From assembly GCF_005938745.2 (NCBI RefSeq), contig NZ_VCBX02000001.1:2011001-2075000 (forward strand): a stretch of 64,000 nucleotides of DNA, given 5' to 3'. Every line of letters begins with the position of its first letter. The stretch's first letter is position 1. Below the pieces are notes generated by a model. That model did not search any database and was not told where the DNA came from. It saw only the letters and a program-made list of their open reading frames with translations. The translations under genes were made by a program, and so were the position numbers. Of the stretch, positions 6,815 to 32,421 are shown one piece after another. This stretch comes from Rhodococcus sp. KBS0724 (GTDB lineage: Bacteria > Actinomycetota > Actinomycetes > Mycobacteriales > Mycobacteriaceae).

Positions 6815-6815
6815 C

Positions 6816-7556: not shown

Positions 7557-7558
7557 TT
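7535..7558. promoter_or_regulatory. Inverted repeat, possible operator of the valine operon
   Basis: AACTATA (7535-7541) and TATAGTT (7552-7558) form a perfect 7-bp inverted repeat with a 10-bp spacer. It overlaps the cutC stop and ends 49 bases before mmsA. Its position and symmetry suit a repressor site; the regulator is not identified. Confidence 0.5.
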
Positions 7559-7607
7559 AGCGCTGCTTCTCCGGCAGTCCACAACGAGCAAGGAACGGGT
7601 TAGCACA

Positions 7608-9125: not shown

Positions 9126-9139
9126 TCGGAAAACCTTCC

Positions 9140-10297
9140 ATGTTTACTCTGACCGATGACGAGCGGGCGATTCGTGACACCGCCCGCGACTTCGCGGCCG
9201 AGCACCTGGCGCCGAATGCGGTGGAATGGGATCAGACCAAGCATTTCCCGGTGGACGTTCTCCGCAAGGCGGCGTCCCTGGGGATGGGCGGCATCTACAT
9301 CCGTGAGGATGTCGGTGGCAGTGAACTGACCCGCGTCGATGCTGCTCGGATCTTCGAGGAGCTCGCCAAGGGTGATCCGTCGATCGCCGCGTACATTTCC
9401 ATCCACAACATGGTCACGTGGATGATCGACCAGTTCGGCAACGACGAACAGCGCCACAAGTGGGTACCCGGACTGTGCTCGATGGATCAGTTGGGCAGCT
9501 ACTGCCTGACCGAACCCGGCGCCGGTTCCGACGCTGCCGGCTTGAGCACCAAGGCCGTTCGTGACGGTGACGACTACATCCTCAACGGCGTCAAGCAGTT
9601 CATTTCCGGCGCAGGCACTTCCGACGTGTATGTCGTGATGGCCCGTACCGGAGCTGCAGGTGCCAAGGGAATCTCGGCATTCATCGTGCCGAAAGATTCG
9701 CCCGGCCTGTCGTTCGGTCCCAACGAGATCAAGATGGGCTGGAACGCACAGCCCACCCGTCAGGTGATCATGGAGGACGTGCGCGTTCCCGCGGCCAACA
9801 TGCTCGGCGAAGAAGGCAGCGGATTCCGCATCGCGATGAAGGGCCTCAACGGCGGCCGCCTCAACATCGCCGCTTGCTCGGTGGGCGGCGCGCAGGCAGC
9901 GCTGGAGAAGGCCGTCGCATATCTGGTGGACCGCAAGGCATTCGGTTCGGCGTTGATCGAATCGCAGGCCCTGCAGTTCCAGCTCGCCGATATGCGAACC
10001 GAACTGGAAGCTGCGCGGACCCTGCTGTGGCGCGCTGCCGCAGCTCTCGACGAGAACGCGCCGGACGTGGTGGAACTGTGCGCTATGGCCAAGCGCTTCG
10101 CGACCGACAACGGTTTCGACGTGGCCAACCGGGCGCTCCAGCTGCACGGTGGGTACGGCTATCTTGCTGAGTACGGGATCGAGAAGATCGTCCGCGATCT
10201 TCGCGTTCACCAGATCCTCGAAGGCAGCAACGAGATCATGCGTGTGGTCATCGCTCGCAGTGTGATCGCAGGGCAGGGAAAGCAGGGAGCAGCATGA
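9140..10297 (+). CDS. Acyl-CoA dehydrogenase, probably isobutyryl-CoA dehydrogenase
   Basis: 385-aa flavoprotein. It has [14 protein letters not shown] for FAD/substrate contact, a [17 protein letters not shown] segment and the catalytic Glu in [13 protein letters not shown] at 9140 ([11 protein letters not shown]) is chosen because the longer frame overlaps mmsA. Context gives the substrate: enzymes for methacrylyl-CoA, 3-hydroxyisobutyryl-CoA and 3-hydroxyisobutyrate follow directly, so isobutyryl-CoA is the expected substrate, as for human ACAD8. It overlaps the next gene by 4 bases. Confidence 0.88.
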
Positions 10298-11352
10298 CCG
10301 AAGAGAACGAAGTTCTGATCGAGAAGCGCGACGGACTGGGACGCATCACCCTCAACCGTCCCAAGGCGATCAACGCGCTCAACCACTCGATGGTGACGCA
10401 GATGGCTGCGGCCCTCGAGGCCTGGAAGTCCGACGACGAGGTCAAGGCTGTCGTCCTGACCGGTGCAGGCGAACGTGGCCTGTGCGCCGGCGGCGATATC
10501 GTCTCGATCTACCACGACGCCAAGGACGGCAAGACCGGCTCGCTCGACTTCTGGCGCGACGAGTACATCTTCAACGCCGAGATTTCGAACTACCCGAAGC
10601 CGTACGTCGCGATCATGGACGGCATCGTCATGGGCGGCGGAGTCGGAGTGTCCGCACACGGCGACGTTCGCATCGTGACCGAGCGTTCCATGATCGGTAT
10701 GCCCGAGACCGGAATCGGATTCATCCCAGACGTCGGCGGAACGTACCTGCTCGCGCGTGCTCCCGGAGAATTGGGAGCACACATCGCGCTCACCACGGCA
10801 CGCTTGAGCGCCGGCGACGCCATCGCGACAGGATTTGCGGACCACTTCATCCCCTCCGAGAACATCGAGACGTTCATCGAGGCGATCGCATCGTCGACGG
10901 TAGAGCAGGCCGTTGCTCAATTTGCCGAGCCCGCACCGGTTTCGGAACTACTGGCACAGCAGAGTTGGATCGACGCCGCGTACTCGGCGGACAATGTCGT
11001 CGCGATTGTCGAGCGCCTGCGCGCCAGCGGAATTCCCGAAGCCGAGAAGGCCGCCGAGCAGATTCTCGGTAAGTCGCCGATCGCGCTGTCCGTCACGTTG
11101 CGTTCGCTTCATCATGCCAAGGGTGCCAACAGCCTCGAAGAAGTTCTGAACGAGGAGTTCCGGGTCTCGACGGCATCACTGAGTTCACACGACCTCGTCG
11201 AGGGTATCCGCGCACAGGTGGTCGAGAAGGACCGCAACCCGCAGTGGCTTCCCGCGACCCTCGCGGACGTCACCGACGCCGCCGTGGAAGCGTACTTTGC
11301 GCCGCTCGGTGAGCGTGAACTCGGCCTCACCCCTCAATCGCAAGGCAACTGA
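10294..11352 (+). CDS. 3-hydroxyisobutyryl-CoA hydrolase (crotonase fold)
   Basis: 352-aa crotonase-family protein. [23 protein letters not shown] and [14 protein letters not shown] are hallmarks of the HIBCH branch, and the length exceeds that of ordinary hydratases by about 90 residues, as expected. The reaction releases 3-hydroxyisobutyrate and CoA. Overlap with the preceding dehydrogenase (ATGA) and placement before mmsB fit the valine pathway order. Confidence 0.87.
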
Positions 11353-11375
11353 TCACCGCCGAAGGAGCATCACTA

Positions 11376-12272
11376 ATGAGCACCATTGGATTTATCGGAC
11401 TCGGACACATGGGTGGCCCGATGGCGGCCAACCTCGTCAAGGCCGGACACACGGTAGTCGGGTTCGACCTGGCGCCCGCAGCGCTCGAGCAGGCTGTCGA
11501 AGACGGTGCATCGGTAGCTGATTCGGCTGTGGATGCGGTGCGCGAAGCCGACGTCGTCATCACGATGCTGCCGAGCGGCAAGCACGTTCTGGGTCTGTAC
11601 GACGATCTGCTGCCCGCCGCGAAGCCGGGCACGCTGTTCATCGACTGCTCCACGATCGACGTCGCAGACGCCCGCGAAGCACACGATCGGGCAGAGGCCG
11701 CTGGGCACCGTAGCGTCGACGCGCCGGTTTCCGGTGGTGTTGTCGGCGCAACCGCCGGAACCCTCGCATTCATGGTCGGCGGATCCGAAGAGGACTTCCT
11801 GGCCGCGTCACCGTTGCTGGACGTGATGGGCCGCAAGGTCGTTCACTGCGGCGACGCCGGTGTCGGTCAGGCCGCGAAGATCTGCAACAACATGATCCTC
11901 GGTGTCTCGATGATCGCCATCAGCGAAGCATTTGTTCTGGGCGAAAAGCTCGGACTGAGCAACCAGGCACTCTTCGACGTCGCGTCCAACGCGTCGGGAC
12001 AGTGCTGGGCTCTCACGTCCAACTGCCCGGTACCCGGACCGGTACCCACCAGCCCGGCCAACAACGACTACCAGCCCGGCTTTGCGGTCGCGTTGATGGA
12101 CAAGGACCTCGGACTGGCCGCAAACGCATTGCGTACCAATGGTGTTGACGCCGAACTCGGCCTCAAGGCCGCTGAGCTCTACAGCCAGTACCATGCCGCG
12201 GGCGCTGGTGGTCAGGACTTTTCTGCCATCATCAACGACATCCGAGACCGTTCGACCGAAGGACAGCAGTGA
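11376..12272 (+). CDS. mmsB: 3-hydroxyisobutyrate dehydrogenase
   Basis: 298-aa NAD-dependent beta-hydroxyacid dehydrogenase. It has the Rossmann motif [18 protein letters not shown], the substrate loop [11 protein letters not shown] and the catalytic Lys in [15 protein letters not shown]. It oxidises 3-hydroxyisobutyrate to methylmalonate semialdehyde, the substrate of mmsA four genes upstream. GAAGGAG lies about 8 bases before the ATG. The stop overlaps the following hydratase start by 4 bases. Confidence 0.92.
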
Positions 12273-13045
12273 CCGACTTCAACACCATCATTCTCGAGCG
12301 TAAGGGCCGCGTCGGCGTCATCACGCTCAACCGTCCCAAGGCGCTCAACGCCCTGAACTCCGAGCTGATGAACGAGGTGGTTGCCGCGGTAACCGATCTC
12401 GAAGCGGACAACAACATCGGTGCCATCCTGATCACCGGTTCCGAGCGCGCATTTGCCGCCGGTGCCGACATCAAGGAAATGCAGTCCAAGACGTACATGG
12501 ACGCGTACGTCGAGGATTTCTTCACGCCGTGGGATCGCGTCGCTGCTTCGCGTAAGCCGCTGATTGCCGCTGTCGCCGGATACGCACTCGGCGGCGGTTG
12601 CGAGCTCGCGATGCTCTGTGACTTCATCATCGCCGCAGATAACGCGAAGTTCGGGCAGCCCGAGATCAAGCTCGGAGTTATCCCCGGAATCGGTGGCTCG
12701 CAGCGTCTTACCCGCGCGGTGGGCAAGGCCAAGGCCATGGAAATGTGCCTCACCGGGCGCAACATGGATGCCGAAGAAGCCGAGCGCGCCGGCCTGGTGT
12801 CTCGCATCGTGCCGGCAGCAGATCTGCTCGACGACGCATTGAAGACGGCAACCACCATCGCCGAGATGTCCCTGCCGATCGCGATGATGGCCAAGGAAGC
12901 GGTCAACCGCTCCTTCGAGTCCTCGCTCGCCGAGGGCGTCCGCTTCGAGCGTCGGGTTTTCCACTCGACCTTCGCTACCGAAGATCAGAAGGAAGGCATG
13001 GCCGCATTTGTCGAGAAGCGGTCAGCTGAGTTCAAGCACCGCTGA
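12269..13045 (+). CDS. Enoyl-CoA hydratase
   Basis: 258-aa crotonase resembling mycobacterial EchA8. [12 protein letters not shown] forms the oxyanion-hole region, [13 protein letters not shown] follows it, and [13 protein letters not shown] carries the catalytic Glu. In this operon it would hydrate methacrylyl-CoA to 3-hydroxyisobutyryl-CoA, completing the isobutyryl-CoA to propionyl-CoA route. It is the last gene of the operon and ends just before a strong hairpin. Broader beta-oxidation use is possible. Confidence 0.88.
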
Positions 13046-13056
13046 CAAGTCCCCAC

Positions 13057-13103
13057 GATCCTGAAGGATTCTGCTCGCTCAGCGAGTGAAATCCTTCAGG
13101 ATC
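13057..13103. terminator. Bidirectional hairpin between the valine operon and marR
   Basis: A perfect 14-bp stem (13057-13070 with 13090-13103) carries a second stem, CTCGC/GCGAG, at its tip. It lies between convergent genes. No long T run is present on either side. Confidence 0.75.
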
Positions 13104-13111
13104 GTTGTCGT

Positions 13112-13636
13112 TTACCCCTCGAAATCCCCGGCAGTCTTGCGCAATTCAGTGAGGATTGTCACCAATTGCGTGAGCTTGTCCGGCTCCAAGCCCGGGTTCG
13201 CGAAGACCTTGGCATTCAGCAGCTCCGTAGCCTCGAGCGCCAATGCTCGGCCGGAATCCGAAATCTCGATGAGTGTTGTCCGACGATCGCTGGGGTGGGG
13301 GACGCGTCGTACCAATTGTGCATTCTCGAGGCGATCCACCGCATTCGTGACGCTGGTGGGGTGAACCTGCAGGCGTGCGCTGGCCTTCGTCATGGGCAGT
13401 GCGCCCGACCTCGTGAAGGTGAGCAGCGTCAGCAGTTCGTATCGAGCGAACGTCAGCCCGAGCGGCTTGAGCACTTCCTCGACTCGCGCCATCATGATCT
13501 GCTGCGCCCGCATCACCGAGGTGACAGCGGCCATCCCATCGGCAACGTCACTCCAACCGTGCTCGGTCCATTGCCGATGTGCCTCTTCGATGGGGTCGAT
13601 GGGAAGCGGCGAAAGGGGAGGCATACGTTCGATCAT
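13112..13636 (-). CDS. MarR-family transcriptional regulator
   Basis: 174 aa. The winged-helix core around residues 60-135 includes ALPMTKASARLQVHPTSVTNAVDRLENAQLVRR and the wing HPSDRRTTLIEISDSG. It is longer than most MarR proteins because of an N-terminal extension with a Pro-rich start and a helical HRQWTEHGW segment. It is divergent from the mraY paralogue with about 73 bases between them, so it may control that gene. Its ligand is unknown. Confidence 0.85.
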   Translation of the reverse strand: MIERMPPLSPLPIDPIEEAHRQWTEHGWSDVADGMAAVTSVMRAQQIMMARVEEVLKPLGLTFARYELLTLLTFTRSGALPMTKASARLQVHPTSVTNAVDRLENAQLVRRVPHPSDRRTTLIEISDSGRALALEATELLNAKVFANPGLEPDKLTQLVTILTELRKTAGDFEG

Positions 13637-19059: not shown

Positions 19060-20445
19060 CTACCGGCCGACGTCGCAGCCCTGAGCGTCGGCGATCAGAA
19101 TCGCAGCGTCCTCGGGGAGTAGGAAACCGTCGTCGACGGCACGCGCAGTAGCGTCGGAGAAGGCGGTGACGTACGCGTCGTGACTCGGGTAGAGCGCAGC
19201 GAGCGTCGTGGCGTCGAAGGCGACGGTTGCGCCGTTCTGAGGCACGTGCACCAGTTCGCCCGTCAGCGTGGCGACCGGGACGTCGAGTTGAGGTGTGCGG
19301 ACACCGCCGGTCGCATTGCCGTGCCGGTCCCGCAGCACCGCATTGTCAGCAGTGTCGATGACGGGCGCTGATGTGGGTGCCTCGCCGCCCGCAGCCCACT
19401 GACGCAAGGCGCGCAGGGCGGCGTTCGCGACGTAACGCTGCGGTCCGTCGTTGACGATCGGGAACAGTGCCGCCAGATCCCTGATGTCGGAGAACTGCCG
19501 AACATACTGTGGATGAAGGATTTTCAGAGAGTAAGCGTCGGAGTGCGATGTGCCGGCGATCTCCCAGGTCCGAATCATGTCGGTATCGGGTTGACGGGCG
19601 GCCACAAAACTGGTGGGGCCTGGTCCGCCGCACAGTTCGAAAAGCTCGGTCTCGGTGATCAGCTGGAACACCGGAACGTCGAGATCGGTGCGCACACGGG
19701 CCGGCGCCGGATCCAGGAGCATCATGCCGTCGGCAAGCGGAGCTCCGATGCCGCCGCGGGCATGAATGATCAGGCCGTCGAATACCCGTGCACGGGGATG
19801 AACGGCGTTGGCGTACGTCAACATACGGAACCCCGACTGTGACTGCCCGGTCGCGAGCAGTTGCGTCGGAAGCAGGCCACCGAGGGGGTCGACGTCCCCT
19901 GGTGTGCGCAGGGCTGCGCCGACCTGGGAAAAGATGTCGTACGAGTACCGGTCGCCGGGGTGATCCAGTGCGCCGTATCGCTCGGGATCCCAGGTGAGAA
20001 GACCTACGACGCCGTCGCCGAGGCCGCTGCCTCCGGTGCTGGTGATTCCGGCAGCCTGCGCGGAGACGCCCACCCACGCATACCCTCTCGTGATCTCCTC
20101 GTTCATGTGTCCGAAGTCGACATCGATATCGGTGTTGCCACTGACATTGAGCCACTCGACAACAACGGTTCCGTTGAATCGGCTCGGGTCGGCCGGTGTG
20201 CGCACGAGGATCCTGGTGGTGAACGGCGCCGAAGTATCTTCCGCCGCAGCCCAATGTCCGTCCGACGACCAGGTACCGTCCTCGCTGTACGACGCCGCGG
20301 ACCCGCTGACGAAGAACTCACGTTCGGTGTAGCCCTTCGCCGCGAGGTCGAGCGAGGTCGAGGTCCCGGGGAAACCGTTCGATCCACCTTCGATCGGACC
20401 ACTGAAGGTAACTGCTGATCGGACGGCGTCGGGATTCGCGTACAT
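19060..20445 (-). CDS. Alpha/beta hydrolase-domain protein (Abhydrolase_10-like)
   Basis: 461 aa. The pattern NGTVVVEWLNVSGNTD, YAWVGVSAQ and the nucleophile segment ATGQSQSGFRMLTYANAVHP matches a family of actinobacterial and proteobacterial putative alpha/beta hydrolases; the likely nucleophile is the Ser in GQSQSG. The His candidate lies in IAGTSHSDAYSL. No signal peptide is seen. It starts 62 bases after the sulfotransferase stop on the same strand and may be the distal gene of that operon. Function unknown. Confidence 0.7.
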   Translation of the reverse strand: MYANPDAVRSAVTFSGPIEGGSNGFPGTSTSLDLAAKGYTEREFFVSGSAASYSEDGTWSSDGHWAAAEDTSAPFTTRILVRTPADPSRFNGTVVVEWLNVSGNTDIDVDFGHMNEEITRGYAWVGVSAQAAGITSTGGSGLGDGVVGLLTWDPERYGALDHPGDRYSYDIFSQVGAALRTPGDVDPLGGLLPTQLLATGQSQSGFRMLTYANAVHPRARVFDGLIIHARGGIGAPLADGMMLLDPAPARVRTDLDVPVFQLITETELFELCGGPGPTSFVAARQPDTDMIRTWEIAGTSHSDAYSLKILHPQYVRQFSDIRDLAALFPIVNDGPQRYVANAALRALRQWAAGGEAPTSAPVIDTADNAVLRDRHGNATGGVRTPQLDVPVATLTGELVHVPQNGATVAFDATTLAALYPSHDAYVTAFSDATARAVDDGFLLPEDAAILIADAQGCDVGR

Positions 20446-20507: not shown

Positions 20508-21647
20508 TCAGCGCCCCCCGAAACGCTCCTCGACTTGCTCGGCGGTCAGCCCGAACTCTTCCAGGGTGTATTTGTGTGCGGGCTTGCGTGCGCCCGAACG
20601 GCTTTCGTCATGCATAGCCTCCATCGACTGCTGCGCGCCGGCGGTCAACGGAAGGTCGAAGTGGGTGTAGATATTCTCGACGGTGGCGAGCGGATCGGCA
20701 ACAAAATCCTGGTAATCGATGTCGATGAATTGGGCGGGATCGTGATGTGCCCGCGCCGCGTCGAACTGTTCGAGTCCTCGGGCCCACAATTCGAGTTGGC
20801 TCTCTCCGATCACCTTGTCGGTGAACGTATTCGACCACCCCTGCGTGGCTTGCGCGGCGAGGCTGCACACCGACGGAATGATTGTCGTGGGCGAGCGGTG
20901 CGTCTGAATGATCAGTGCGTCCGGGTACACAGTCATCAGTTCGTCGAGCGCAAACAGGTGGCTGGGATTCTTGAGAACCCACCGGCGATCCTGATCCGGG
21001 AGTCCGATCAACTGGAGATTCTTCTTGTGGCGCGCATAGGCATTGGACCATTCCTGGCCTTTCAGCCAATTCGAGTACGTGGGCAGATTGGCCAGACACT
21101 CGTACGACACCGATTTGAACGTCTGCCGGAGCAGTTGCCAGCATTCTTCGACTTCGCTGGCAGACATGTAGTGCACACCCATGAACTCGGGGTGTTCGAC
21201 GTGGTGTTGGCCGAACGTCTCCTCGATCTTGGCGAATACGGGGTTCGATTCCCAGGTATCGCGTGGCGGGCGAGGCTGCGGAAACTCCGTCAGCCACATC
21301 TCGAGACCTTGATGTGCCGGGTCCACCGTCAAGAGTCGGTGCAGCGCAGTAGTTCCGGTGCGGGGCAACCCGGTGACAAAAATCGGGCGTTCGATCTTGA
21401 CCTCGGCATGCTCAGGATGCTGCTTCCACGCAGACTCACTGAGCAGGCGGGCGACCAAGGCTCCGCGGAGAAAAACGCGAGAGATTTTGCTGCCGAACGG
21501 CGTCAGGTCCTCGTCGCGGTCGTACGACTCGAGGAGAACTGACAGGGCTTCGGTGTAATCGTCGACGCCAAAATCGGTGAGCCCCGTCATCTTGGTTGCG
21601 GATGCATGAAGATCCTCGACGGTTCCGACATGTGTGCGCTCAGCCAT
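20508..21647 (-). CDS. PAPS-dependent sulfotransferase family protein
   Basis: 379 aa. GLPRTGTT at residues 93-100 is the 5'-phosphosulfate loop, and IIQTHRSPTTIIPSVCSL matches the 3'-phosphate site, so PAPS binding is expected. ATG at 21647 has AGGAG at good spacing; the longer frame overlaps the SDR gene. It is third in a DUF1214-SDR-sulfotransferase operon, an order I recall for M. tuberculosis Rv3531c-Rv3530c-Rv3529c in the cholesterol region. PAPS-making genes lie beyond the IclR gene. The acceptor is unknown; a steroid-derived alcohol is a hypothesis. Confidence 0.8.
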   Translation of the reverse strand: MAERTHVGTVEDLHASATKMTGLTDFGVDDYTEALSVLLESYDRDEDLTPFGSKISRVFLRGALVARLLSESAWKQHPEHAEVKIERPIFVTGLPRTGTTALHRLLTVDPAHQGLEMWLTEFPQPRPPRDTWESNPVFAKIEETFGQHHVEHPEFMGVHYMSASEVEECWQLLRQTFKSVSYECLANLPTYSNWLKGQEWSNAYARHKKNLQLIGLPDQDRRWVLKNPSHLFALDELMTVYPDALIIQTHRSPTTIIPSVCSLAAQATQGWSNTFTDKVIGESQLELWARGLEQFDAARAHHDPAQFIDIDYQDFVADPLATVENIYTHFDLPLTAGAQQSMEAMHDESRSGARKPAHKYTLEEFGLTAEQVEERFGGR

Positions 21648-21654
21648 GATGCTC

Positions 21655-22437
21655 CTAGTGATGGAATTCGCCGCAGTTGACGTCGATACATTGACCGGTG
21701 ATGGCATTGGCCATCGGTGACGCGAGGAAGATTGCCGCGTCGGCCACTTCGTCGGTGGTGGGGAGGCGCTTCAAGTCGGTATTGGCGGCAGTGTGCTCGT
21801 AGATCTGTTCGACGGTCATGCCGAACTTCTCGGCTTGATGGGCGAAGTAGCCCTTGAGGGTGTCGCCCCAGATATATCCGGGTGCAATAGAATTGACGCG
21901 GATTCCCTGCGGACCGAGTTCGGTGGCCAAGGACTGAGACATCGCGAGCAGTGCCGACTTTGCCATCTTGTAGCTGCCGTACCGCTCCTGTGAGTGTCGC
22001 AGAACCATCGAGTTGATGTTCACAACCGAGCCGTTCGACTCCGCGAGCGGCGCTGTGAAGAGTTGTGTCAGCCGAAGTGCACCGAGAACAGTGAGTTCGA
22101 TGCTGTCGCGGATGTGCTGATAGTCGGTGCGCGCCAGCGGTTTCATCGACGGTACGGAGAAGGCGTTGTTGATCAGCGTGTCGACTTTGCCGTAGGCGAA
22201 TAGGGATTCGGCCACCAGGTTTTCGGCGGACGCCTGATCGGTGATGTCGGTGGCAACGGTGACAGCGCGTCCACCGGCGTCGACTATCTCCTTGGCAACG
22301 TCGTCCAATCGGGACTGTGTGCGCGCTGCGAGAACAAGATTCGCACCGGCCGACGCGCAGCGTAGTGCCAGTGCGCGGCCCAGTGCGGGGCCGACACCGG
22401 AAATGACAACTACTCGGTCTTTCAGCAATTCGGTCAT
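21655..22437 (-). CDS. Short-chain dehydrogenase/reductase
   Basis: 260 aa of classical SDR form. The nucleotide-binding motif is SGVGPALGRALAL, NNA follows at 90-92, Ser143 and the Tyr156-x3-Lys160 pair form the active site. The TGxxxGxG motif is slightly altered (SGVGPALG). It starts 3 bases after the DUF1214 gene and ends 7 bases before the sulfotransferase, so the three are co-transcribed. It could make the hydroxyl or ketone that the sulfotransferase pathway needs. Confidence 0.85.
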   Translation of the reverse strand: MTELLKDRVVVISGVGPALGRALALRCASAGANLVLAARTQSRLDDVAKEIVDAGGRAVTVATDITDQASAENLVAESLFAYGKVDTLINNAFSVPSMKPLARTDYQHIRDSIELTVLGALRLTQLFTAPLAESNGSVVNINSMVLRHSQERYGSYKMAKSALLAMSQSLATELGPQGIRVNSIAPGYIWGDTLKGYFAHQAEKFGMTVEQIYEHTAANTDLKRLPTTDEVADAAIFLASPMANAITGQCIDVNCGEFHH

Positions 22438-22440
22438 CTG

Positions 22441-23607
22441 TTACCCCAGCATTCGATTGTCGATGGCGGCCTGGCGGGCGGCGATTCGCTCTGCCCAGTT
22501 GTCGGCGGTGATGGCATTGGTGTCGAAATGCGGCAGATGTTTCGGAATATCCTCAACGGCAACAATTTCGACGGTCGGCCCGTCCTCGGGCGTCAGTCCA
22601 CGCGAGACCCGCTGCCAACGGAACTGAAGAATGCCGCGCGGATGCCCGACGGTTTCGACCCAGTTGGTGACGCCGGGATTCTTCTCGCTCACCACCATTC
22701 GGATCATGCCGTCCGGATCCACCTGAGCCTGACCGTTGTTGAGTGACGTCTGGTGATTGATGTAGTCGAGCGAGATGTACCACAGGCTACCGAGTTGAAA
22801 GCCCTGGTACGGCGCATCCGAGGCTGGAACGGTGATGATCATGGCCTGATCGTCGGTAAGTTCGTAATGCCCGACCGAGGAGTACTGCGTGGCGAGACCA
22901 CCTGGGGTCAGCCGAGGCTCGGTCATCGTGTTGACTGGGAGCTTCATGTAGAACCATTCCGGGAACTGAAGCCACGTCTTGACCCGGGTGACCAGAGCCT
23001 TCCCGGCCCGCGCAAAACGCTTCTCGGTTTCCTCGGCGGTGAGCGGCGCGGGCGCCGTGCCGATCGAATCCGTCCGCTCGATCCGGATGACTCCGCGTTC
23101 CTGGCTCCAGTCGCTGTAGACCTCTCGCGCGACGAGCTGTGACGATCCCGGTGCGAGGGTGTAGTAGTTGGCGCGGCCGTCGGCCGGTCCGGGGCCGAAC
23201 CACACGACAAAACTGCCGTCGTCTGCGATCTCGAGTTCACGGTCGTCGAACGCTATCTCGCTACCCGGGACATTCGAGTTGGTGTAGTTGCCGCTCAGGA
23301 CCTGGAAGCTGAGATCGGCTGTGGTGCCGCGCTTTCCCGTGACCTTGTATTCCTGGTCGTCGTTGATACGCGCACCGAAGTACATCGTGTCGGGGTTGTC
23401 GAGCCCCATCTTTGTGAACGGCCCGGTTCCCTGGATGAAACTGGGGTGGGTTCTCTCGACGGCCCACGCTGCGTGCATTGTCGCGATGATTCCGCCCGCC
23501 AGGTATTGGTACCCCTCGAGGAGATCCTGTTCGGATCTGATGTGTGGCGCGGTCTCGATGAGTTTCTCGGCCTCGGCGATGGCCTGGGCAAACGGGTCCG
23601 TCAGCAC
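22441..23607 (-). CDS. DUF1214-type protein
   Basis: 388 aa, no signal peptide. The segment DNPDTMYFGARINDDQEYKV and the later ITVPASDAPYQGFQLGSLW region resemble DUF1214/DUF1254 proteins, whose biochemical role is not established. GTG at 23607 is preceded by GAGGAG. It is first in the operon with the SDR and sulfotransferase. Its promoter region contains a KstR-consensus palindrome and a second palindrome shared with the cysD promoter. Rv3531c is the likely mycobacterial counterpart, from memory of gene order. Confidence 0.7.
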   Translation of the reverse strand: MLTDPFAQAIAEAEKLIETAPHIRSEQDLLEGYQYLAGGIIATMHAAWAVERTHPSFIQGTGPFTKMGLDNPDTMYFGARINDDQEYKVTGKRGTTADLSFQVLSGNYTNSNVPGSEIAFDDRELEIADDGSFVVWFGPGPADGRANYYTLAPGSSQLVAREVYSDWSQERGVIRIERTDSIGTAPAPLTAEETEKRFARAGKALVTRVKTWLQFPEWFYMKLPVNTMTEPRLTPGGLATQYSSVGHYELTDDQAMIITVPASDAPYQGFQLGSLWYISLDYINHQTSLNNGQAQVDPDGMIRMVVSEKNPGVTNWVETVGHPRGILQFRWQRVSRGLTPEDGPTVEIVAVEDIPKHLPHFDTNAITADNWAERIAARQAAIDNRMLG

Positions 23608-23653
23608 GCTGGCTCCTCACAGTTCCGGCAGTCCTGCCGGCCCAGAGCGTCGT

Positions 23654-23669
23654 GGTACAAATATGTACC
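23654..23669. promoter_or_regulatory. Palindrome GGTACA-N4-TGTACC, copy 1
   Basis: Perfect 6-bp arms around AATA, between the DUF1214 gene and iclR. The same arms around AAAA occur at 24701-24716 before cysD. A likely operator, perhaps of the IclR protein encoded between the copies. Confidence 0.6.
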
Positions 23670-23697
23670 TATGGGGTAGATCTTGGTATTCTGACAA

Positions 23698-23711
23698 TAG
23701 AACGCGTTCTA
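23698..23711. promoter_or_regulatory. KstR-type operator, copy 1
   Basis: TAGAACGCGTTCTA is a perfect 14-bp palindrome that fits the known KstR motif TNNAACNNGTTNNA at every fixed position. It sits 12 bases before the iclR start and about 90 bases before the DUF1214 start, where it could control both directions. Confidence 0.7.
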
Positions 23712-23722
23712 GGGAGTGGTCA

Positions 23723-24646
23723 ATGGGTGAGCTCGAGAAGTCCCGTTCGGCGGGACGTCAGTCTCCACCCACCGAACGCGTCGTGCAGGTTCTCGACTAC
23801 CTGGTGGCGCGCCCCGACCAGCGTTTCGGGTTGTCCGAACTTGCCAGAACACTCGAGATCAGTAAGCCGACCGCGCTGGGAATCCTGACGGTGTTGGCGG
23901 ACCGCGGGTATCTCACGCGGGACGACGCAGTGAAAACGTATGGTCTGGGGCCGGCACTGATTGCGGCGGGCCGGGCGGCTCAGCGAGGATTCGCTGTCGG
24001 GCCTATTGCCCGCGCTCATCTCGAGAAGCTGAGCGCCGAATTCGATACGACGTGCACGGCGTCGGCGGTAGTCGGTGATCGGATCAGTGTTCTCGAAGTC
24101 ACCGGGCCGGAAGGCATACGGAAAGCGGCGAGGGTCGGTCAGGTGTATCCGTTCGCTCCGCCGGTCGGATTGATGTACGTGCTCTGGGGAAGTGATCACG
24201 ATCTCGAGAGTTGGCTGGCGCGAGAACCGAGCCTGCCGGTGCGTCTCGATCGGGATCGGTTGTGGACCGTGGTGCGCGACTGTCGCGACTCCGGGTATCT
24301 CGTCGAGAGTCTCGATCCGATCGGTCAGCGCCTGCACACGTTGATGGCCGGTGTTGTGACACATGATCTTCCGTCCGAGGTGCGGGAGTTGCTCGGCGAA
24401 ATGGTGTCGAGTCTGGGGGAGCGGGTGTATCTCGGGCGCGACATCAGTTCGGATGAGGAGCATCCCGTGTCGTTGATTGCGGCTCCCACCTACGACGCCG
24501 AAGGTCATCAGGCGTTGGTGTTGACGCTGTACGTGGGCGGCTCGGTCACGGGCTCCGAGATCGAGCGACGCGCTACGGCATTGGTGGCCGCTGCCGATGC
24601 CGTAACTGCTGAGGTGGGCGGACGGGCTCCGGTTCGCAGTCATTGA
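23723..24646 (+). CDS. IclR-family transcriptional regulator
   Basis: 307 aa. Residues about 15-75 form the N-terminal winged helix (RVVQVLDYLVARPDQRFGLSELARTLEISKPTA); the remainder fits the IclR effector domain. ATG at 23723 is chosen because the long frame upstream shadows the divergent gene. It lies between two operons whose promoters share the same two palindromes in mirrored order, so it may regulate both the sulfotransferase and PAPS-synthesis operons. Effector unknown; KstR sites suggest steroid-linked control. Confidence 0.85.
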   Translation: MGELEKSRSAGRQSPPTERVVQVLDYLVARPDQRFGLSELARTLEISKPTALGILTVLADRGYLTRDDAVKTYGLGPALIAAGRAAQRGFAVGPIARAHLEKLSAEFDTTCTASAVVGDRISVLEVTGPEGIRKAARVGQVYPFAPPVGLMYVLWGSDHDLESWLAREPSLPVRLDRDRLWTVVRDCRDSGYLVESLDPIGQRLHTLMAGVVTHDLPSEVRELLGEMVSSLGERVYLGRDISSDEEHPVSLIAAPTYDAEGHQALVLTLYVGGSVTGSEIERRATALVAAADAVTAEVGGRAPVRSH

Positions 24647-24654
24647 CCTCTAGG

Positions 24655-24668
24655 TAGAACGAGTTCTA
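24655..24668. promoter_or_regulatory. KstR-type operator, copy 2
   Basis: TAGAACGAGTTCTA again satisfies TNNAACNNGTTNNA at every fixed position, with one central mismatch in symmetry. It lies 72 bases before the cysD start, directly after iclR. Confidence 0.65.
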
Positions 24669-24700
24669 TTCTGTGAGTGCGTTCGTTCTCGAACCAGTCC

Positions 24701-24716
24701 GGTACAAAAATGTACC
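24701..24716. promoter_or_regulatory. Palindrome GGTACA-N4-TGTACC, copy 2
   Basis: The same arms as at 23654-23669, here around AAAA, 24 bases before the cysD start. A shorter inverted repeat GTTCG-N4-CGAAC sits just upstream at 24681-24694. Confidence 0.6.
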
Positions 24717-24739
24717 GACGCCGAGTAGGAGCTGAAGCG

Positions 24740-25666
24740 ATGTCCGCACTCCAGGCCCCACCCGCCTATGAACTGTCCCATCTACGGGCGCTCGAGGCCG
24801 AGGCCGTCCATGTCTTCCGGGAAGTTGCCGCGACTTTCGAAAAGCCGGTACTCCTGTTCTCCGGCGGCAAGGATTCCGTGGTGATGCTCCACGTCGCGGC
24901 CAAGGCCTTCTGGCCGGCACCGTTGCCGTTTGCCGTCATGCATGTCGACACCGGCCACAACTTCGACGAAGTGATCGAGTTTCGTGATCGAACCGTGGAG
25001 CGGTTCGGCTTGCGAATGGTGGTTGCCAGCGTGCAGGACGATATCGATGCAGGCCGTGTCTCGGAGGAGACCGGCGTCGGGGCGAGTCGTAACCGCCTGC
25101 AAACTCACGCACTTCTCCGCGGAATTCGGGACGGAAAGTTCGACGCCGTATTCGGGGGAGCGCGCCGGGACGAAGAGAAGGCGAGAGCAAAAGAACGAGT
25201 CTTCAGTTTCCGGGACGAATTCGGCCAATGGGATCCCAAGATGCAGCGACCGGAACTGTGGAACCTGTACAACGGCAAACACCGTAAGGGCGAACACATT
25301 CGGATCTTCCCGCTCTCCAACTGGACCGAACTCGACATCTGGCAGTACATCGAAAGCGAAATGATCGACCTTCCCGGCATCTACTATGCCCATCGGCGTG
25401 AGGTGGTGCCGCGCGACGGAATGCTGTTGGCGCGCACACGGTTCCTCGAACTGCAGCCGGGAGAAGAATCTTACGAAGCGCTGGTGCGGTTCCGTACCGT
25501 CGGCGACGCCACCTGCACCGGTTGTGTGGAGTCGTCTGCCGAAACGGTCGCCGCCGTCGTAGAAGAAGTAGCCGCGAGCCGGATCACCGAGCGCGGAGCC
25601 ACCCGTGCCGACGACCGAATCTCCGAGGCGGGCATGGAAGATCGAAAGAAAGAGGGGTACTTCTGA
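24740..25666 (+). CDS. cysD: Sulfate adenylyltransferase small subunit
   Basis: 308 aa. It makes APS from sulfate and ATP together with CysN. SGGKDSVVMLH is the PP-loop ATP-binding motif, followed by HVDTGHNFDEV and RRDEEKARAKER. ATG at 24740 has AGGAG upstream; the longer frame begins upstream of the GGTACA palindrome. Its stop overlaps the cysNC start by one base. A KstR-like and a second palindrome lie in its promoter, which would be unusual for ordinary sulfur assimilation genes. Confidence 0.92.
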   Translation: MSALQAPPAYELSHLRALEAEAVHVFREVAATFEKPVLLFSGGKDSVVMLHVAAKAFWPAPLPFAVMHVDTGHNFDEVIEFRDRTVERFGLRMVVASVQDDIDAGRVSEETGVGASRNRLQTHALLRGIRDGKFDAVFGGARRDEEKARAKERVFSFRDEFGQWDPKMQRPELWNLYNGKHRKGEHIRIFPLSNWTELDIWQYIESEMIDLPGIYYAHRREVVPRDGMLLARTRFLELQPGEESYEALVRFRTVGDATCTGCVESSAETVAAVVEEVAASRITERGATRADDRISEAGMEDRKKEGYF

Positions 25667-27510
25667 TGCCGCAACTCCTCCGAGTCGCGACCGCGGGCAG
25701 TGTCGACGACGGAAAGTCGACGCTCATCGGCCGATTGCTCTACGACTCCAAATCGATCTTCGAAGATCAACTCGAAGCCGTCGAGCGCAGCAGTCGTGAA
25801 CGCGGCGACGAGTACGCCAACCTCGCATTGCTCACCGACGGGTTGCGGGCCGAGCGTGAGCAGGGCATCACAATCGATGTGGCGCACCGATACTTTGCCA
25901 CTCCGCATCGCAAGTTCATCATCGCGGACACACCCGGGCACGAGCAGTACACCCGCAACATGGTGACCGGTGCGTCGACGGCCGACCTCGCCCTCATCCT
26001 GGTCGACGCACGCAAAGGTGTGCTCGAACAAACGCGTCGGCATGCCTTCCTGTCAACACTTCTCGGGATTCCTCACCTCGTTCTGTGCGTGAACAAGATG
26101 GACCTGGTGGGCTGGTCGCAGGATCGGTTCGAGGAAATCAAGGAAGAGTTTCGGCAGTTTGCCATCAAGCTCGATGTTCACGATCTGTCCTTCATTCCCG
26201 TATCGGCGCTGTTGGGGGACAACATCGTTGCACGCACCGAGAACATGTCCTGGTACGACGGCCCGTCGCTGCTGCACCATCTCGAGCAGGTGCACATCGC
26301 GTCGGATCGCAATCTCATCGATGCGCGATTCCCGGTGCAGTACGTCATCCGTCCGCAGCAGCAAACCGACGCAGACCTTCATGACTTCCGCGGATACGCC
26401 GGGACAGTCGCCAGTGGAGTCTTCAAACCCGGCGACGAAGTAGTTGTTCTCCCTTCAGGTTTCACGTCGACGGTAAAGGCTGTTCACGGACCGGGCGGAA
26501 CTGCGATCGCGGAAGCATTCGCGTCGTCCGCCGTGTGCATCGAACTGAGCGAGCACCTCGACGTCAGTCGCGGAGATCAATTGTGCCGGATCAACAACCG
26601 GCCGCAGGTGGGTCAAGAGATCGACGCGATGATCTGTTGGCTCACCGACCAATCGACATTGTCCGAGAACAACCGGTACTCGTTGCTGCACACCACGCGC
26701 TCGACCAAGGCGCAAATTGTGCGCCTCGACTACCGTCTCGATGTCAATACACTGCACCGCGACGAAAACGCGGAGGCGCTCTCTCTCAACGAAATCGGGC
26801 GCATCGCGATCAAGACGCAGCAGCCGTTGATGTTCGATCCCTACCGTCGCAATCGTGTCACCGGCAGCTTCATTCTGGTGGACGAGACCACCGGAAATAC
26901 CGTCGCCGCTGGAATGATCAACGGACCGACACTCAAGGATTCCCACGTCGTCTGGCACAGTTCCGAAGTCTCGCGGGAAGAGCGCGCGACCGCAGGCGCC
27001 ACCGTGTGGCTCACCGGGCTCTCGGCCTCCGGTAAATCCACGATCGCAGTGGAACTTGAACGCAGACTTGTCGCTGCAGGAACTCCGGCCTACCGGCTGG
27101 ACGGCGACAACCTGAGGCACGGACTCAATGCCGATTTGGGATTCAGCGCCGAGGACCGGGCTGAGAATGTGCGACGAGTTGGCTCGGTGGCGCAGTTGTT
27201 CGCCGATTCCGGCGCAGTAGCCGTGGCCTGCCTGATCAGTCCGTACCGTCAGGATCGAGACCGCGTCCGCGCTGCTCACGAAGCGGCAGGACTGCGCTTT
27301 ATCGAGGTGTACGTGGACACCCCGATCGAGCAGTGTGAAGCCCGCGATCCCAAAGGCATGTACGCCAAGGCCAGAGCCGGGGAAATCAAGGGCTTCACCG
27401 GAGTCGACGATCCCTACGAGGCTCCCGAACACGCCGAACTGGTAATTCGACCCGAAGACGGAACGCCTGCCGAACTGGCGCAGCGGATTATGGAAGTCTT
27501 GGCCAGGTGA
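25666..27510 (+). CDS. cysNC: CysN-CysC fusion: ATP sulfurylase GTPase subunit plus APS kinase
   Basis: 614 aa. Residues 1-440 are CysN, with P-loop AGSVDDGKST (10-19), ADTPGHEQYTRNM and NKMDLV. The C-terminal part is APS kinase, with P-loop GLSASGKS at 451-458 and LISPYRQDRDRVR. The fused form is known from mycobacteria. Product is PAPS, the sulfate donor of sulfotransferases. ATG overlaps the cysD stop (TGATG), and the stop overlaps cysQ by 4 bases, so the whole sulfate-activation set is translationally coupled. Confidence 0.93.
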   Translation: MPQLLRVATAGSVDDGKSTLIGRLLYDSKSIFEDQLEAVERSSRERGDEYANLALLTDGLRAEREQGITIDVAHRYFATPHRKFIIADTPGHEQYTRNMVTGASTADLALILVDARKGVLEQTRRHAFLSTLLGIPHLVLCVNKMDLVGWSQDRFEEIKEEFRQFAIKLDVHDLSFIPVSALLGDNIVARTENMSWYDGPSLLHHLEQVHIASDRNLIDARFPVQYVIRPQQQTDADLHDFRGYAGTVASGVFKPGDEVVVLPSGFTSTVKAVHGPGGTAIAEAFASSAVCIELSEHLDVSRGDQLCRINNRPQVGQEIDAMICWLTDQSTLSENNRYSLLHTTRSTKAQIVRLDYRLDVNTLHRDENAEALSLNEIGRIAIKTQQPLMFDPYRRNRVTGSFILVDETTGNTVAAGMINGPTLKDSHVVWHSSEVSREERATAGATVWLTGLSASGKSTIAVELERRLVAAGTPAYRLDGDNLRHGLNADLGFSAEDRAENVRRVGSVAQLFADSGAVAVACLISPYRQDRDRVRAAHEAAGLRFIEVYVDTPIEQCEARDPKGMYAKARAGEIKGFTGVDDPYEAPEHAELVIRPEDGTPAELAQRIMEVLAR

Positions 27511-28652
27511 GCGAACCTACGCACAGCCGAACTGCAGACGCCGAATTGGCGGCCGAACTGGCGGAAGCGGCCGGAGCGATTCTTCTCGGTATTCGGGCCG
27601 AGGGACTCGGTGTCAGCGATGGTAGGGAATTGGGCCGGCGCGGGGACAAGGCAGCCGACGTCTACATCCTCGAGCAGCTGGCCAAGACCCGTCCCGGTGA
27701 CGCCGTCCTGTCCGAAGAGTCCGCCGACGATCGCACCAGACTCGAAGCATCTCGGGTGTGGATCATCGACCCTCTCGACGGATCCAAGGAATACGGAATG
27801 CCTGATCGTTCAGACTGGGCTGTACACGTTGCGCTCTGGGAGCGGGGACATGGCATCACTGCGGCGGCGGTGTCGCAACCGGCGCTCGGACAGGTCTACT
27901 CGAGTAACGATGCCGCGTTGGATGTACCGGCAAACCACCCGCTTCGCATCGTTGTCAGTGGTTCTCGTCCGCCGGCATTCACGGACGGCGTGGCAGCTGA
28001 ACTCGATGCCGACGTCCTCTATATGGGATCGGCCGGAGCGAAGGCGATGGCCGTCGTACGCGGTGACGTCGACGCCTACCTGCATGCCGGTGGGCAGTGG
28101 GAATGGGATTCGGCCGCGCCCGTCGGAGTTGCCCAGGCGGCTGGATTGCACTGCAGCCGCATCGACGGTTCGCCGTTGTCGTACAACGAATCCCATCCGT
28201 ATCTGCCCGACCTCGTGATCTGCCGACCCGAATTGGCCGAGTCGATCCTGCGCGCAATTGCCACGCACTCGGACGTGGTTGCCGTCAGTGGACGCGTCGC
28301 CATGGCGCGTGAGTACGTGAATGCGTTGCTCACCCACGACGCAACGAAGGTGCGTTTTGCGGCCGACGCGTGGCGCGTCGAGAACGGTCAACGGACCGGC
28401 GACACGGGCGCTTTCATCAGCAACGAACTCGAACAGGGGCAGCAGTACCGCGGAATCGTCGCGATACGTGAACTTGCACTGCGTGAGTGGGGCGAGAGCG
28501 TTGTGGCGCGGTACCTGCTGGACCTCGGAACGCCAGGACAACAACCGGCTACCACCGTGTTTGTCACCGAGTACTTCGCGATACCGGCCGGCGAGATCGA
28601 GAGCATCATGGCAATTATCGAACCCCACCCGAAAGAGGCTGACACACAATGA
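27507..28652 (+). CDS. cysQ: CysQ-type 3'(2'),5'-bisphosphate nucleotidase with C-terminal NTF2-like extension
   Basis: 381 aa. Residues 1-255 are an inositol-monophosphatase-family enzyme with metal-site motifs LSEESAD, WIIDPLDGSKEYG (Asp88, Asp91) and WEWDSAAP. CysQ removes PAP left by sulfotransferases. Typical CysQ ends near residue 260; here about 110 further residues (MAREYVNALLTHDATKVRF onward, then QYRGI and the final FVTEYFAIPAGEIESIM) look like an NTF2/SnoaL-type domain. It is coupled to cysNC and to the epoxide-hydrolase-like gene by 4-base overlaps. Confidence 0.82.
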   Translation: MSEPTHSRTADAELAAELAEAAGAILLGIRAEGLGVSDGRELGRRGDKAADVYILEQLAKTRPGDAVLSEESADDRTRLEASRVWIIDPLDGSKEYGMPDRSDWAVHVALWERGHGITAAAVSQPALGQVYSSNDAALDVPANHPLRIVVSGSRPPAFTDGVAAELDADVLYMGSAGAKAMAVVRGDVDAYLHAGGQWEWDSAAPVGVAQAAGLHCSRIDGSPLSYNESHPYLPDLVICRPELAESILRAIATHSDVVAVSGRVAMAREYVNALLTHDATKVRFAADAWRVENGQRTGDTGAFISNELEQGQQYRGIVAIRELALREWGESVVARYLLDLGTPGQQPATTVFVTEYFAIPAGEIESIMAIIEPHPKEADTQ

Positions 28653-29020
28653 CACCCGATACGTTGGTGACCGAATTCTGCAAAGAGTGGGCCGACGCGG
28701 ACATCGCGAAAATCGTCGACTACTTCACCGATGACATCGTCTACCACAACATTCCGATGGAACCCGTGGTCGGGCGCGAGGCCGTCCGGGCGTTCATCGA
28801 GCAGTTTGTCGGCGCCTTCGGCAACATCGACTATCAGGTCAAACGTCAGGTTGCGAACGGCTCTGTGGTCATGAACGAGCGCGTCGACGTCTTCGCCATC
28901 AACGGCGCGGAGGTGGCGCTACCGGTCATGGGTGTGTTCGAAATCCGTGACGGGAAGATCAGCGCCTGGCGCGACTACTTCGACATGGCGCCGATCACGG
29001 CGGCAGCCGGCCAGGGCTGA
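28649..29020 (+). CDS. Limonene-1,2-epoxide hydrolase-family protein (SnoaL/NTF2 fold)
   Basis: 123 aa, about the size of the atypical epoxide hydrolases. The Arg-x-Asp pair (Arg78, Asp80 in NERVDVF) and Asp109 in AWRDYFD match the catalytic Asp-Arg-Asp of limonene epoxide hydrolase. The related M. tuberculosis Rv2740 (EphG) is reported to act on cholesterol-5,6-oxide, which fits the steroid-type operators of this locus. It overlaps cysQ by 4 bases and is the last gene of the operon. Whether it is a hydrolase or a binding protein is not certain. Confidence 0.75.
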   Translation: MTPDTLVTEFCKEWADADIAKIVDYFTDDIVYHNIPMEPVVGREAVRAFIEQFVGAFGNIDYQVKRQVANGSVVMNERVDVFAINGAEVALPVMGVFEIRDGKISAWRDYFDMAPITAAAGQG

Positions 29021-30788: not shown

Positions 30789-30816
30789 GACCGCATTCTA
30801 GTTGAAGACACTATTA

Positions 30817-30860
30817 CTTGCAACTGCATTAAATGCTTGTGCATTAAGTGCATGTGCATC
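30817..30860. promoter_or_regulatory. Repeated MarR-type operator in the marR-MFS gap
   Basis: TGCATTAAATGC (30825-30836) and TGCATTAAGTGC (30840-30851) are direct copies with a 15-bp period. Half copies flank them (TTGCAACTGCA and TGCATGTGCAT). The elements cover most of the 85-bp divergent promoter. Confidence 0.6.
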
Positions 30861-30873
30861 TATTCTCGCTGAC

Positions 30874-32421
30874 GTGACTTGCACAGACTCGACACTGAAA
30901 CCATTCGATTCGCCGGAAACCCCGGCTTCCACGGAATTCACGGCTTCTGCGGAATTCACGGACCCGGCCGCAGGGGAGGGTTGGTCCCTCAAGCTGTGGG
31001 GCATCCTTGCGGTGCTCTGCCTCGTGTTGTTCCTCGACGGCCTCGATGTGTCGATGGTGGGCGTCGCTCTACCGTCCATCGGCAATGAACTGGGCCTGTC
31101 CACTACCTCGCTGCAGTGGATCATCAACGGTTACGTCCTCGGATTCGGCGGACTGCTGCTCCTGGGCGGGCGCACAGCCGACCTCCTCGGACGTCGGAAA
31201 GTCTTCCTGATCGCACTCGCCGTGTTCGCGATCGCCTCGCTGGTCGGTGGACTTGTCGACAACGGAACACTGCTGATCGCATCACGATTCGTGAAGGGAC
31301 TGGCTGCGGCATTCACGGCTCCGACCGCGATGTCCATCCTCACCACGACGTTCAAGGAAGGTCCGGCCCGCAACCGTGCGCTATCCGTGTTCTCGGTGTT
31401 CGGTGCCAGTGGTTACTCGTCCGGCCTGATTCTCGGTGGGCTGTTGACCAGCGCCGGTTGGCGATTCACGTTCCTGATGCCGGTTCCGTTTGCCGTCATC
31501 GCACTGATCGGTGGGTACTTCCTCATTCCGCGGGACCGTCCCGCGGACAACGGGGGACACGACCTGGTCGGTGCCGTCACTCTGGTGACGGGAATGCTGC
31601 TCACGGTCTACACGATGGTCTCGGCACCGGCCCGTGGTTGGGCGCACCCGATGACGCTGGGATCGTTTGCCGTGGCAGCGGTGTTGTTGGCGACGTTCTT
31701 CTTCGTGGAGAAGAAGGTGGCGCATCCGCTTGTACGCCTTGGACTTCTGCGCGTCGGAACCATCGTTCGTGCGAATCTGGCCATCATCGCGCTCTTCGGG
31801 TCCTACCTGAGCTTCCAGTTCATGATGACGATCTTCCTGCAGTCCGCCCTCGGCTGGTCGCCCCTGAAGATGGCGATGGCCCTGCTTCCGGCCGGCATCA
31901 TCGTCGCCTTCGGGTCACCGTTTGTCGGACGATTGGTCGACCTGTACGGCAGTGCCAAGCTCATCATCGCCGCACTGACGTCGCTGAGCGTCGGGTACCT
32001 CTGGTTCCTGTTTGCCGGGAGTGATTCACCGTCGTACGTCGTGGCGATCCTGCCGAGCGTCATCCTGCTCGGACTCGGATTTGCGTTGGGCTACACCTCG
32101 ATCATGGCTCAGGCCACCTCCGGCGTCGACGATTCGGAGCAAGGTCTGGCCTCCGGTCTGGTGAACACATCGGCTCAGGTCGGTGCGGCCCTGGTGCTTG
32201 CCCTGACTACTGCCCTGGTGACCGCCGGATCGCATACCGCGACCGGTGCCGGAACCGCTGGGTTCGAGCAGTTCCATCCCGGACTGATCCTGGTCACCGG
32301 CGTAGCGCTGGTGGGCTTGGCCATCACCGTCTCGCCGCTGGTGCGTGGAAGATCGGCGCGTGGAGGGAGCGCCGAAGCAGAGGACGAGTTGACACCCGTC
32401 CCCTCGACGACAACCGTCTGA
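30874..32421 (+). CDS. DHA2-type MFS drug exporter (14 membrane segments)
   Basis: 515 aa with about 14 hydrophobic segments. LDVSMVGVALPSIGNELG and GGRTADLLGRRKVF (motif A) are typical of EmrB/QacA drug:proton antiporters. GTG at 30874 is chosen because the upstream in-frame sequence lies inside the operator repeats. No good ribosome-binding site is visible, so the mRNA may be nearly leaderless. Paired with a divergent MarR gene. Substrate unknown. Confidence 0.85.
   Translation: MTCTDSTLKPFDSPETPASTEFTASAEFTDPAAGEGWSLKLWGILAVLCLVLFLDGLDVSMVGVALPSIGNELGLSTTSLQWIINGYVLGFGGLLLLGGRTADLLGRRKVFLIALAVFAIASLVGGLVDNGTLLIASRFVKGLAAAFTAPTAMSILTTTFKEGPARNRALSVFSVFGASGYSSGLILGGLLTSAGWRFTFLMPVPFAVIALIGGYFLIPRDRPADNGGHDLVGAVTLVTGMLLTVYTMVSAPARGWAHPMTLGSFAVAAVLLATFFFVEKKVAHPLVRLGLLRVGTIVRANLAIIALFGSYLSFQFMMTIFLQSALGWSPLKMAMALLPAGIIVAFGSPFVGRLVDLYGSAKLIIAALTSLSVGYLWFLFAGSDSPSYVVAILPSVILLGLGFALGYTSIMAQATSGVDDSEQGLASGLVNTSAQVGAALVLALTTALVTAGSHTATGAGTAGFEQFHPGLILVTGVALVGLAITVSPLVRGRSARGGSAEAEDELTPVPSTTTV

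Follow-up and report, generated by a model that had tools for sequence, protein, structure and literature searches.

The locus described here lies in a window of 64,000 nucleotides from Rhodococcus sp. KBS0724 (C1:2011001-2075000; genome size 7.25 Mb), the term window denoting this whole stretch, and it combines a sulfotransferase operon with genes for the supply of 3'-phosphoadenosine 5'-phosphosulfate (PAPS). The left-reading operon encodes a DUF1214-like protein, a short-chain dehydrogenase/reductase (SDR) and a sulfotransferase (ST), the right-reading one comprises cysD, cysNC, a CysQ-like gene and a gene for a limonene-epoxide-hydrolase (LEH) protein, and an iclR gene stands between them. 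The gene calls confirm the two mirrored operons around iclR that had been observed in an earlier interpretation of the same DNA, referred to below as the sequence-only reading. Intergenic gaps inside each operon range from -4 to +10 bp, with start and stop codons overlapping between genes in the right operon. The genes, with start codons picked by us, are:

20508..21647, minus strand: ST, PAPS-dependent, with a Sulfotransfer_3 domain; homologue of Mycobacterium tuberculosis Stf1
21655..22437, minus strand: SDR-family oxidoreductase (NF005909, 424 bits, cut-off 258; PDB 3ucx, E 4e-111)
22441..23607, minus strand: DUF1214-like protein, first gene of the left operon (weak Pfam match, predicted fold)
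23723..24646, plus strand: iclR, IclR-family regulator of 307 aa (PF09339, 35.1 bits, gathering threshold 22)
24740..25666, plus strand: cysD, small subunit of sulfate adenylyltransferase (TIGR02039, 453 bits, cut-off 396.6)
25666..27510, plus strand: cysNC, large subunit of sulfate adenylyltransferase with a fused adenosine 5'-phosphosulfate (APS) kinase (NF004035, 966 bits, cut-off 715; PF01583)
27507..28652, plus strand: CysQ-like phosphatase for 3'-phosphoadenosine 5'-phosphate (PAP) with an extra C-terminal region (PF00459, 100 bits, above gathering)
28649..29020, plus strand: LEH/SnoaL-fold protein (PF07858, 76.5 bits, gathering threshold 24)

The ST shares 60% identity with M. tuberculosis Stf1, for which a solved structure exists (2zq5), and its motifs were unchanged across 41 sequences. 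Its domain, its PAPS motifs and its closeness to Stf1 together assign it to the Stf1 type, as judged from the protein sequence, and the comparison of folds gave no reading of the acceptor. CysD and the fusion of CysN with APS kinase both score above the NCBI cut-offs, and the right operon thus encodes both parts of a sulfate-activating complex. The third gene of this operon had been labelled cysQ; the family assignment stands on PF00459, whereas the match to TIGR01331 (89.6 bits) falls under the equivalog cut-off of 228.8, and because of this we use the name CysQ-like. A Pfam scan of its C-terminal 130 aa at E 0.01 gave no family; by eye, this extension (window 28260-28649, plus strand) appears NTF2/SnoaL-like. 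The label DUF1214 was likewise sustained in part, since the Pfam score of 20.6 bits is under the gathering threshold of 25, but the predicted fold resembles 6ans, VPA0106 and VPA0735, the latter two being DUF1214 proteins, and therefore agrees with the assignment. The high-Z structures of this fold search were all titled uncharacterised, and the nearest named relative of the protein among the 80 relatives kept (of 102) is from R. globerulus, with 98% identity. The catalytic set of LEHs consists of Y, N, R, D and D. In the LEH protein of the window, the YxN (YHN), RxD (ERVD) and WRDYFD motifs align with those of the solved LEHs 1nww and 5aif, so that the catalytic residues are present in a SnoaL fold; the protein is a predicted hydrolase, in agreement with the earlier epoxide hydrolase label. 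IclR has the helix-turn-helix domain of its family, and a Pfam scan at E 0.001 listed no domain in its C-terminal effector region.

Two palindromes occur at both promoters, in reverse order on the two sides as had been claimed:

23654..23669, no strand: GGTACAAATATGTACC, palindrome in the left operon's 5' leader and probable operator of IclR (two exact genome copies; follows iclR)
23698..23711, no strand: TAGAACGCGTTCTA, KstR-type box in the left promoter (strict-site count, conservation)
23694..23723, minus strand: promoter-like TTGACC-N18-TATTGT of the left operon (pattern matched in 28 of 30 loci)
24643..24672, plus strand: promoter-like TTGACC-N18-TATTCT of the cysD operon (pattern matched in 27 of 30 loci)
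24655..24668, no strand: TAGAACGAGTTCTA, KstR-type box in the right promoter (strict-site count, conservation)
24701..24716, no strand: GGTACAAAAATGTACC, palindrome in the cysD operon's 5' leader and probable operator of IclR (genome count, conservation)

The KstR-type box (TAGAAC-N2-GTTCTA) is located inside the 18-bp spacer of both promoters with two bases overlapping the -10 element, and the -35 positions lie over the start codon of iclR on the left and over its stop codon on the right. The second palindrome (GGTACA-N4-TGTACC) follows 24 and 29 bp beyond the -10, in the presumed leaders; its exact form GGTACANNNNTGTACC has two copies in the genome, both at this locus.

A kstR gene is present in the genome (NF033703, 335 bits, cut-off 280; C1:740282-740827). 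The strict box TAGAACNNGTTCTA has eight sites genome-wide, two of them at this locus, and a reversed control pattern has two. Among the six others, two flank an acyl-CoA-dehydrogenase gene adjoining kstR, one is next to the gene for an F420 enzyme of the Rv3520c type and another next to that for a PaaE-like reductase, perhaps the product of kshB. No steroid tie was found for the site at C1:2834353 (L018), beside a gene for a wax ester synthase/diacylglycerol acyltransferase with hemE nearby, nor for that at L020, in whose vicinity a gene product matches HsaD far under the cut-off. The looser pattern TNNAACNNGTTNNA yielded 79 sites against 60 for its control and was dropped as proof; as it is weakly informative alone, significance was taken from the strict form together with conservation. 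With a box between -35 and -10 of both promoters, its conservation described below and kstR in the genome, both operons belong to the predicted KstR regulon. As a separate observation, a second KstR-like protein (C1:1168177-1168722) scores 211 bits, under the cut-off, with similar scores in related genomes.

The arrangement is retained in the named relatives. In the 30 loci of the Rhodococcus type (Rhodococcus, Prescottella and Antrihabitans), a divergent cysD is present in 30, ST in 30, SDR in 29 and LEH in 21. The AAC-N2-GTT core of the KstR-type box was found in the DUF1214 promoter of 29 and the cysD promoter of 26 of these loci, and GGTNCA-N4-TGNACC in 30 and 24, respectively; symmetric variants of the second palindrome such as GGTCCAAATATGGACC occur. 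In Gordonia and Williamsia, all 15 named loci have the order hsaA-hsaC-hsaB-DUF1214-SDR-ST on one strand with a divergent kshA. The region from kshA to hsaA, as cut, contains an exact KstR box in 12 of the 15 loci, the remaining three (L083, L093 and L099) having a box near position 6900-7000, and cysD lies downstream in 4 of the 15. In Nocardia, cysD is positioned upstream of DUF1214-SDR-ST on the same strand in 32 of 32 named loci, none of which has an exact KstR box upstream of cysD. In three Actinomadura loci the trio is present, and none of cysD, kshA and hsa was found within the stretch read. We also noted that cysD promoters of Nocardia and Gordonia without a KstR box share another palindromic element like GTCGAATATTCGAC (e.g., L065:7068-7177 and L087:20381-20455), beside a more distant IclR homologue, and that a sequence close to the KstR box, TGAAACAGGTTCTT, stands directly before a TTGACC hexamer upstream of cysD in L074 and L109.

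A survey of 151 genomes of one family extended this comparison; 112 of them, our own included, have a DUF1214 gene at E 1e-40. The best match per genome was taken and about 20 kb read around it; as loci end about 10 kb to each side or at contig ends, counts of missing neighbours are upper bounds. Only the named query proteins were looked for, at identity thresholds chosen by us, with an IclR query carrying one extra N-terminal residue and an ST query starting one residue late. The ST was found nearby in 111 of the 112 loci, SDR in 94 and an adjacent iclR in 65. Linkage to cysD was present in 69 (56 divergent, 3 upstream on the same strand, 10 downstream) and linkage to kshA in 42, with 33 showing the order hsaA-hsaC-hsaB-DUF1214 and a divergent kshA. 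At least one of cysD, kshA and hsa is linked in 101 loci, and both kinds in 10. In 95 of 112 loci, a KstR box is present no more than 260 bp from the operon start; the reversed pattern is so placed in 0 of 112, and the box occurs in 8 of 771 offset windows. TTGAC or TTGAA precedes the box by at most 16 bp in 53 of these 95, and the promoter layout of the window is therefore not universal. Where an adjacent iclR with at least 40% identity is present, the strict second palindrome was found in 52 of 65 loci, most of the 13 exceptions showing variants by eye such as GGTACATATATGGAAC or TTCCATATATGGAAC, and in loci without such an iclR it was found in 0 of 47. The second palindrome thus follows iclR and is likely the IclR operator, as far as this distribution indicates, whereas the KstR-type box occurs with and without iclR.

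The DUF1214 gene also accompanies kstR across genomes. Both the gene and a KstR above the cut-off are present in 111 of the 151 genomes, KstR only in 8, the DUF1214 gene only in one and neither in 31; the genomes are related, so that a Fisher value overstates their independence. In the single DUF1214-only genome (G125), KstR matches in two overlapping pieces (C1:1797298-1797850), which may reflect a disrupted gene or an error in sequencing. All 112 genomes carrying the DUF1214 gene also gave a KshA-family match, and 10 further genomes have KshA without it.

The right operon could in principle serve plain sulfur assimilation and adjoin the left operon by chance, as cysD and cysN also function in that pathway. 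The genome contains four cysD matches, one of them in a sir-cysH-cysD-cysN assimilation cluster elsewhere (L013), and neither cysH nor sulfite reductase was among the genes scanned in the window, both being found at L013. The two CysD proteins are homologous (61-62% identity), whereas the match of the window CysNC to this cluster ends before the APS kinase part. Having an APS kinase fusion and a CysQ-like gene in place of cysH and sulfite reductase, the window set does not have the composition of an assimilatory operon, and the exact KstR 14-mer is absent from the 20 kb read at L013. Moreover, the operators are common to both promoters and the linkage persists although the gene order varies. 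We therefore rejected an assimilatory function, which is highly improbable given the separate cluster, and regard cysD and cysNC of the window as a dedicated PAPS set. The sequence-only reading had argued for a self-contained sulfation system of this kind and had named a sole cysDNC set under sulfur-starvation control among the findings that would speak against it; the assimilation cluster elsewhere in the genome answers part of this.

The trio DUF1214-SDR-ST presumably corresponds to Rv3531c-Rv3530c-Rv3529c of mycobacteria, with Stf1 being Rv3529c, and the genus labelled g29 in our survey is taken to be Mycobacterium. As no M. tuberculosis name was among the best 120 of 4574 protein matches, this presumed identity rests on the title of 2zq5 (STF1, H37Rv) and the kshA neighbourhood in g29. 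All 9 loci of g29 have kshA close to the trio, and 5 of the 9 have an adjacent iclR; unlike in the window, where PAPS supply is adjacent under the same two operators, cysD was not found within about 10 kb in the nine loci (one of them 6.6 kb long). According to PMC1995591, a KstR gel shift was positive at Rv3531c/Rv3532 and RT-qPCR was positive at MSMEG_5932/5933, the M. smegmatis site of the latter sharing the core TAGAACGCGTTCTA. In mycobacteria, the left operon thus seems to have been described before as a target of KstR, and these data agree with the earlier claim of a KstR-type site, which is also borne out by the boxes at both operons and their conservation across species. What is new here is that a sulfotransferase operon of the KstR regulon is joined to a PAPS supply of its own, the two having both operators in common. 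The main texts of two steroid transcriptome studies (PMC6593523 and PMC7807495) do not mention sulfotransferase, cysD, DUF1214, sulfate adenylyl or Rv3531, and that of PMC6593523 does not mention Rv3529. A literature search on a KstR and IclR regulon in Rhodococcus returned a GlnR review only, and the acceptor of Stf1 was not named in the literature searched, in a search that was not exhaustive.

Sulfotransferases adjacent to genes of sulfate activation have been described in other settings. In the cholesterol sulfation cluster BT_0411-BT_0416 of Bacteroides, a sulfotransferase lies beside putative PAPS genes, and both Bt_0412 and Bt_0416 are raised by cholesterol; this cluster, compared here by its description, belongs to another phylum, and KstR/IclR, SDR, DUF1214 and LEH are unmentioned in the available part of the paper (PMC9417993). 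In R. qingshengii IGTS8, a second complex for sulfate activation, which includes APS kinase, has a sulfotransferase as its neighbour (CysN2C-CysD2-Stf0), but according to the sections of PMC8557817 at hand, the transferase is of the Stf0 type, a probable sulfatase is nearby, the cultures were grown with dibenzothiophene, and no steroid link is mentioned.

Taken together, gene content, promoter layout, conservation, the linkage to kshA and hsaACB, the co-occurrence with kstR and the separate assimilation cluster support the presence of a steroid-induced sulfation module gated by KstR and IclR, with its own PAPS supply and a steroid-derived acceptor, to which we assign a probability of roughly 0.65. 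KstR would occupy both promoters between -35 and -10 and thereby block RNA polymerase, until it is released by acyl-CoA thioesters derived from cholesterol. IclR, bound at the putative second operator in the 5' leaders, may act as an added local gate. CysD and CysNC would then produce PAPS at catabolic flux, apart from sulfur assimilation, and the Stf1-type ST would transfer the sulfuryl group to a hydroxyl, for which our best guess is one on an intermediate derived from steroids. SDR and possibly the DUF1214-like protein may prepare or process the substrate of the ST, and the CysQ-like protein would remove PAP. Regulation and self-sufficiency are the parts of this proposal supported by the comparison of sequences, and the locus is apparently wired to the master switch of cholesterol breakdown and stays together in many relatives; we infer that steroids induce it in this strain, and we also deduce, rather than observe, a fate for the sulfate ester. 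A sulfate conjugate may be exported; an MFS (major facilitator superfamily) gene is located nearby at 30802-32421. The co-regulation of donor and transferase, claimed previously, is predicted for this locus from its boxes at both operons, but as judged from exact boxes it is not universal, since these precede the divergent cysD in 31 of 56 loci and, as described, cysD in none of those of Nocardia. The sequence-only interpretation is accordingly supported in part, by the KstR boxes, the dedicated PAPS set and the linkage to kshA and hsaACB elsewhere; a sterol or sterol fragment as the sulfated molecule stays a prediction, and donor co-regulation is no rule throughout the family.

As a further observation on the surroundings of the ST, a gene for a PF20091 alpha/beta hydrolase (window 19060-20445, minus strand) lies 62 bp past it on the same strand, and a homologue is found at most 400 bp past the ST in 8 of 30 Rhodococcus-type loci.

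The product of the ST may not be a steroid at all, with growth on sterols inducing the sulfation of an envelope lipid, a quinone or a signal. M. tuberculosis Stf3 has been proposed to sulfate a menaquinone. Among mycobacterial sulfotransferases, the products assigned are sulfomenaquinone (PMC6469627) and, for an enzyme that starts its synthesis, sulfolipid-1 (a study cited in PMC3141025). Rv3529c is absent from the genes listed as required on cholesterol, which favours a product of this kind; Rv3531c is listed as predicted to be necessary for such growth, in favour of the steroid-induced module. We regard a non-steroid product as unlikely, because the trio forms the tail of hsaACB operons in all named Gordonia and Williamsia loci and in about three tenths of the survey (33/112), is accompanied by an SDR in most loci and here also by an epoxide hydrolase, and follows kstR across genomes.

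The genome has two further sulfation modules, paralogous to that of the window, to which the two remaining cysD copies belong. At L014 (C1:4868001-4888000, 2486-13126), a TetR gene is opposite to cysQ-cysD-cysNC-SDR-ST-DUF1214-SBP_bac_5, followed by a gene of the luciferase-like monooxygenase (LLM) type. Its ST and SDR are 53% and 50% identical to those of the window, the exact KstR 14-mer is absent from the stretch, and GAAC-N3-GTTC palindromes lie between TetR and cysQ. At L015 (C1:672001-692000, 450-11005), SDR-ST-metallo-beta-lactamase/alkylsulfatase-like-OYE (old yellow enzyme)-SBP_bac_5 is opposite to TetR-cysQ-cysD-cysNC. With identities of 50% for TetR, 81% for CysNC and 47% for the solute-binding proteins, L014 and L015 are sister modules in appearance. 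In L015, the ST gene overlaps that of the sulfatase-like protein, whose motif QGHTDH differs from the usual one by a replacement of its first His; such a pair would be futile unless the alcohol is inverted or eliminated.

CurM, Ols and retinol dehydratase are precedents for sulfate as a leaving group, and all three are included in the fold list of the window ST, with scores tied with those of other sulfotransferases. One could thus imagine that the ST activates a hydroxyl from which sulfate leaves by elimination or substitution, the dedicated CysD and CysNC recycling it, although we consider this quite improbable. In a broader form, the aerobic degradation of steroid rings by actinobacteria would include PAPS-dependent sulfation as a working step. 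The trio would convert a steroid hydroxyl into a sulfate that leaves, or else into a sulfo-intermediate that is obligatory, the co-induced CysD/CysNC/CysQ cycle would re-activate the released sulfate, and the trios of L014 and L015 would act likewise on other substrates. The presence of a complete additional PAPS set that shares the switches of the trio supports a role at the level of flux, whereas the non-required listing of Rv3529c and the eight genomes with KstR and without the gene weigh against an obligatory step, and this form is doubtful, too.

Under the proposal of a steroid-induced module, the linkage to kshA and hsaACB together with the dedicated PAPS set gives the orphan Stf1 a testable place in cholesterol metabolism, and the conserved linkage predicts that a sulfated metabolite is made on sterols. 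If this is true, it would provide a reason for steroid-degrading rhodococci to hold a sulfate-activation complex apart from assimilation. Our findings suggest that the part played by sulfation in steroid handling by these bacteria has been overlooked.

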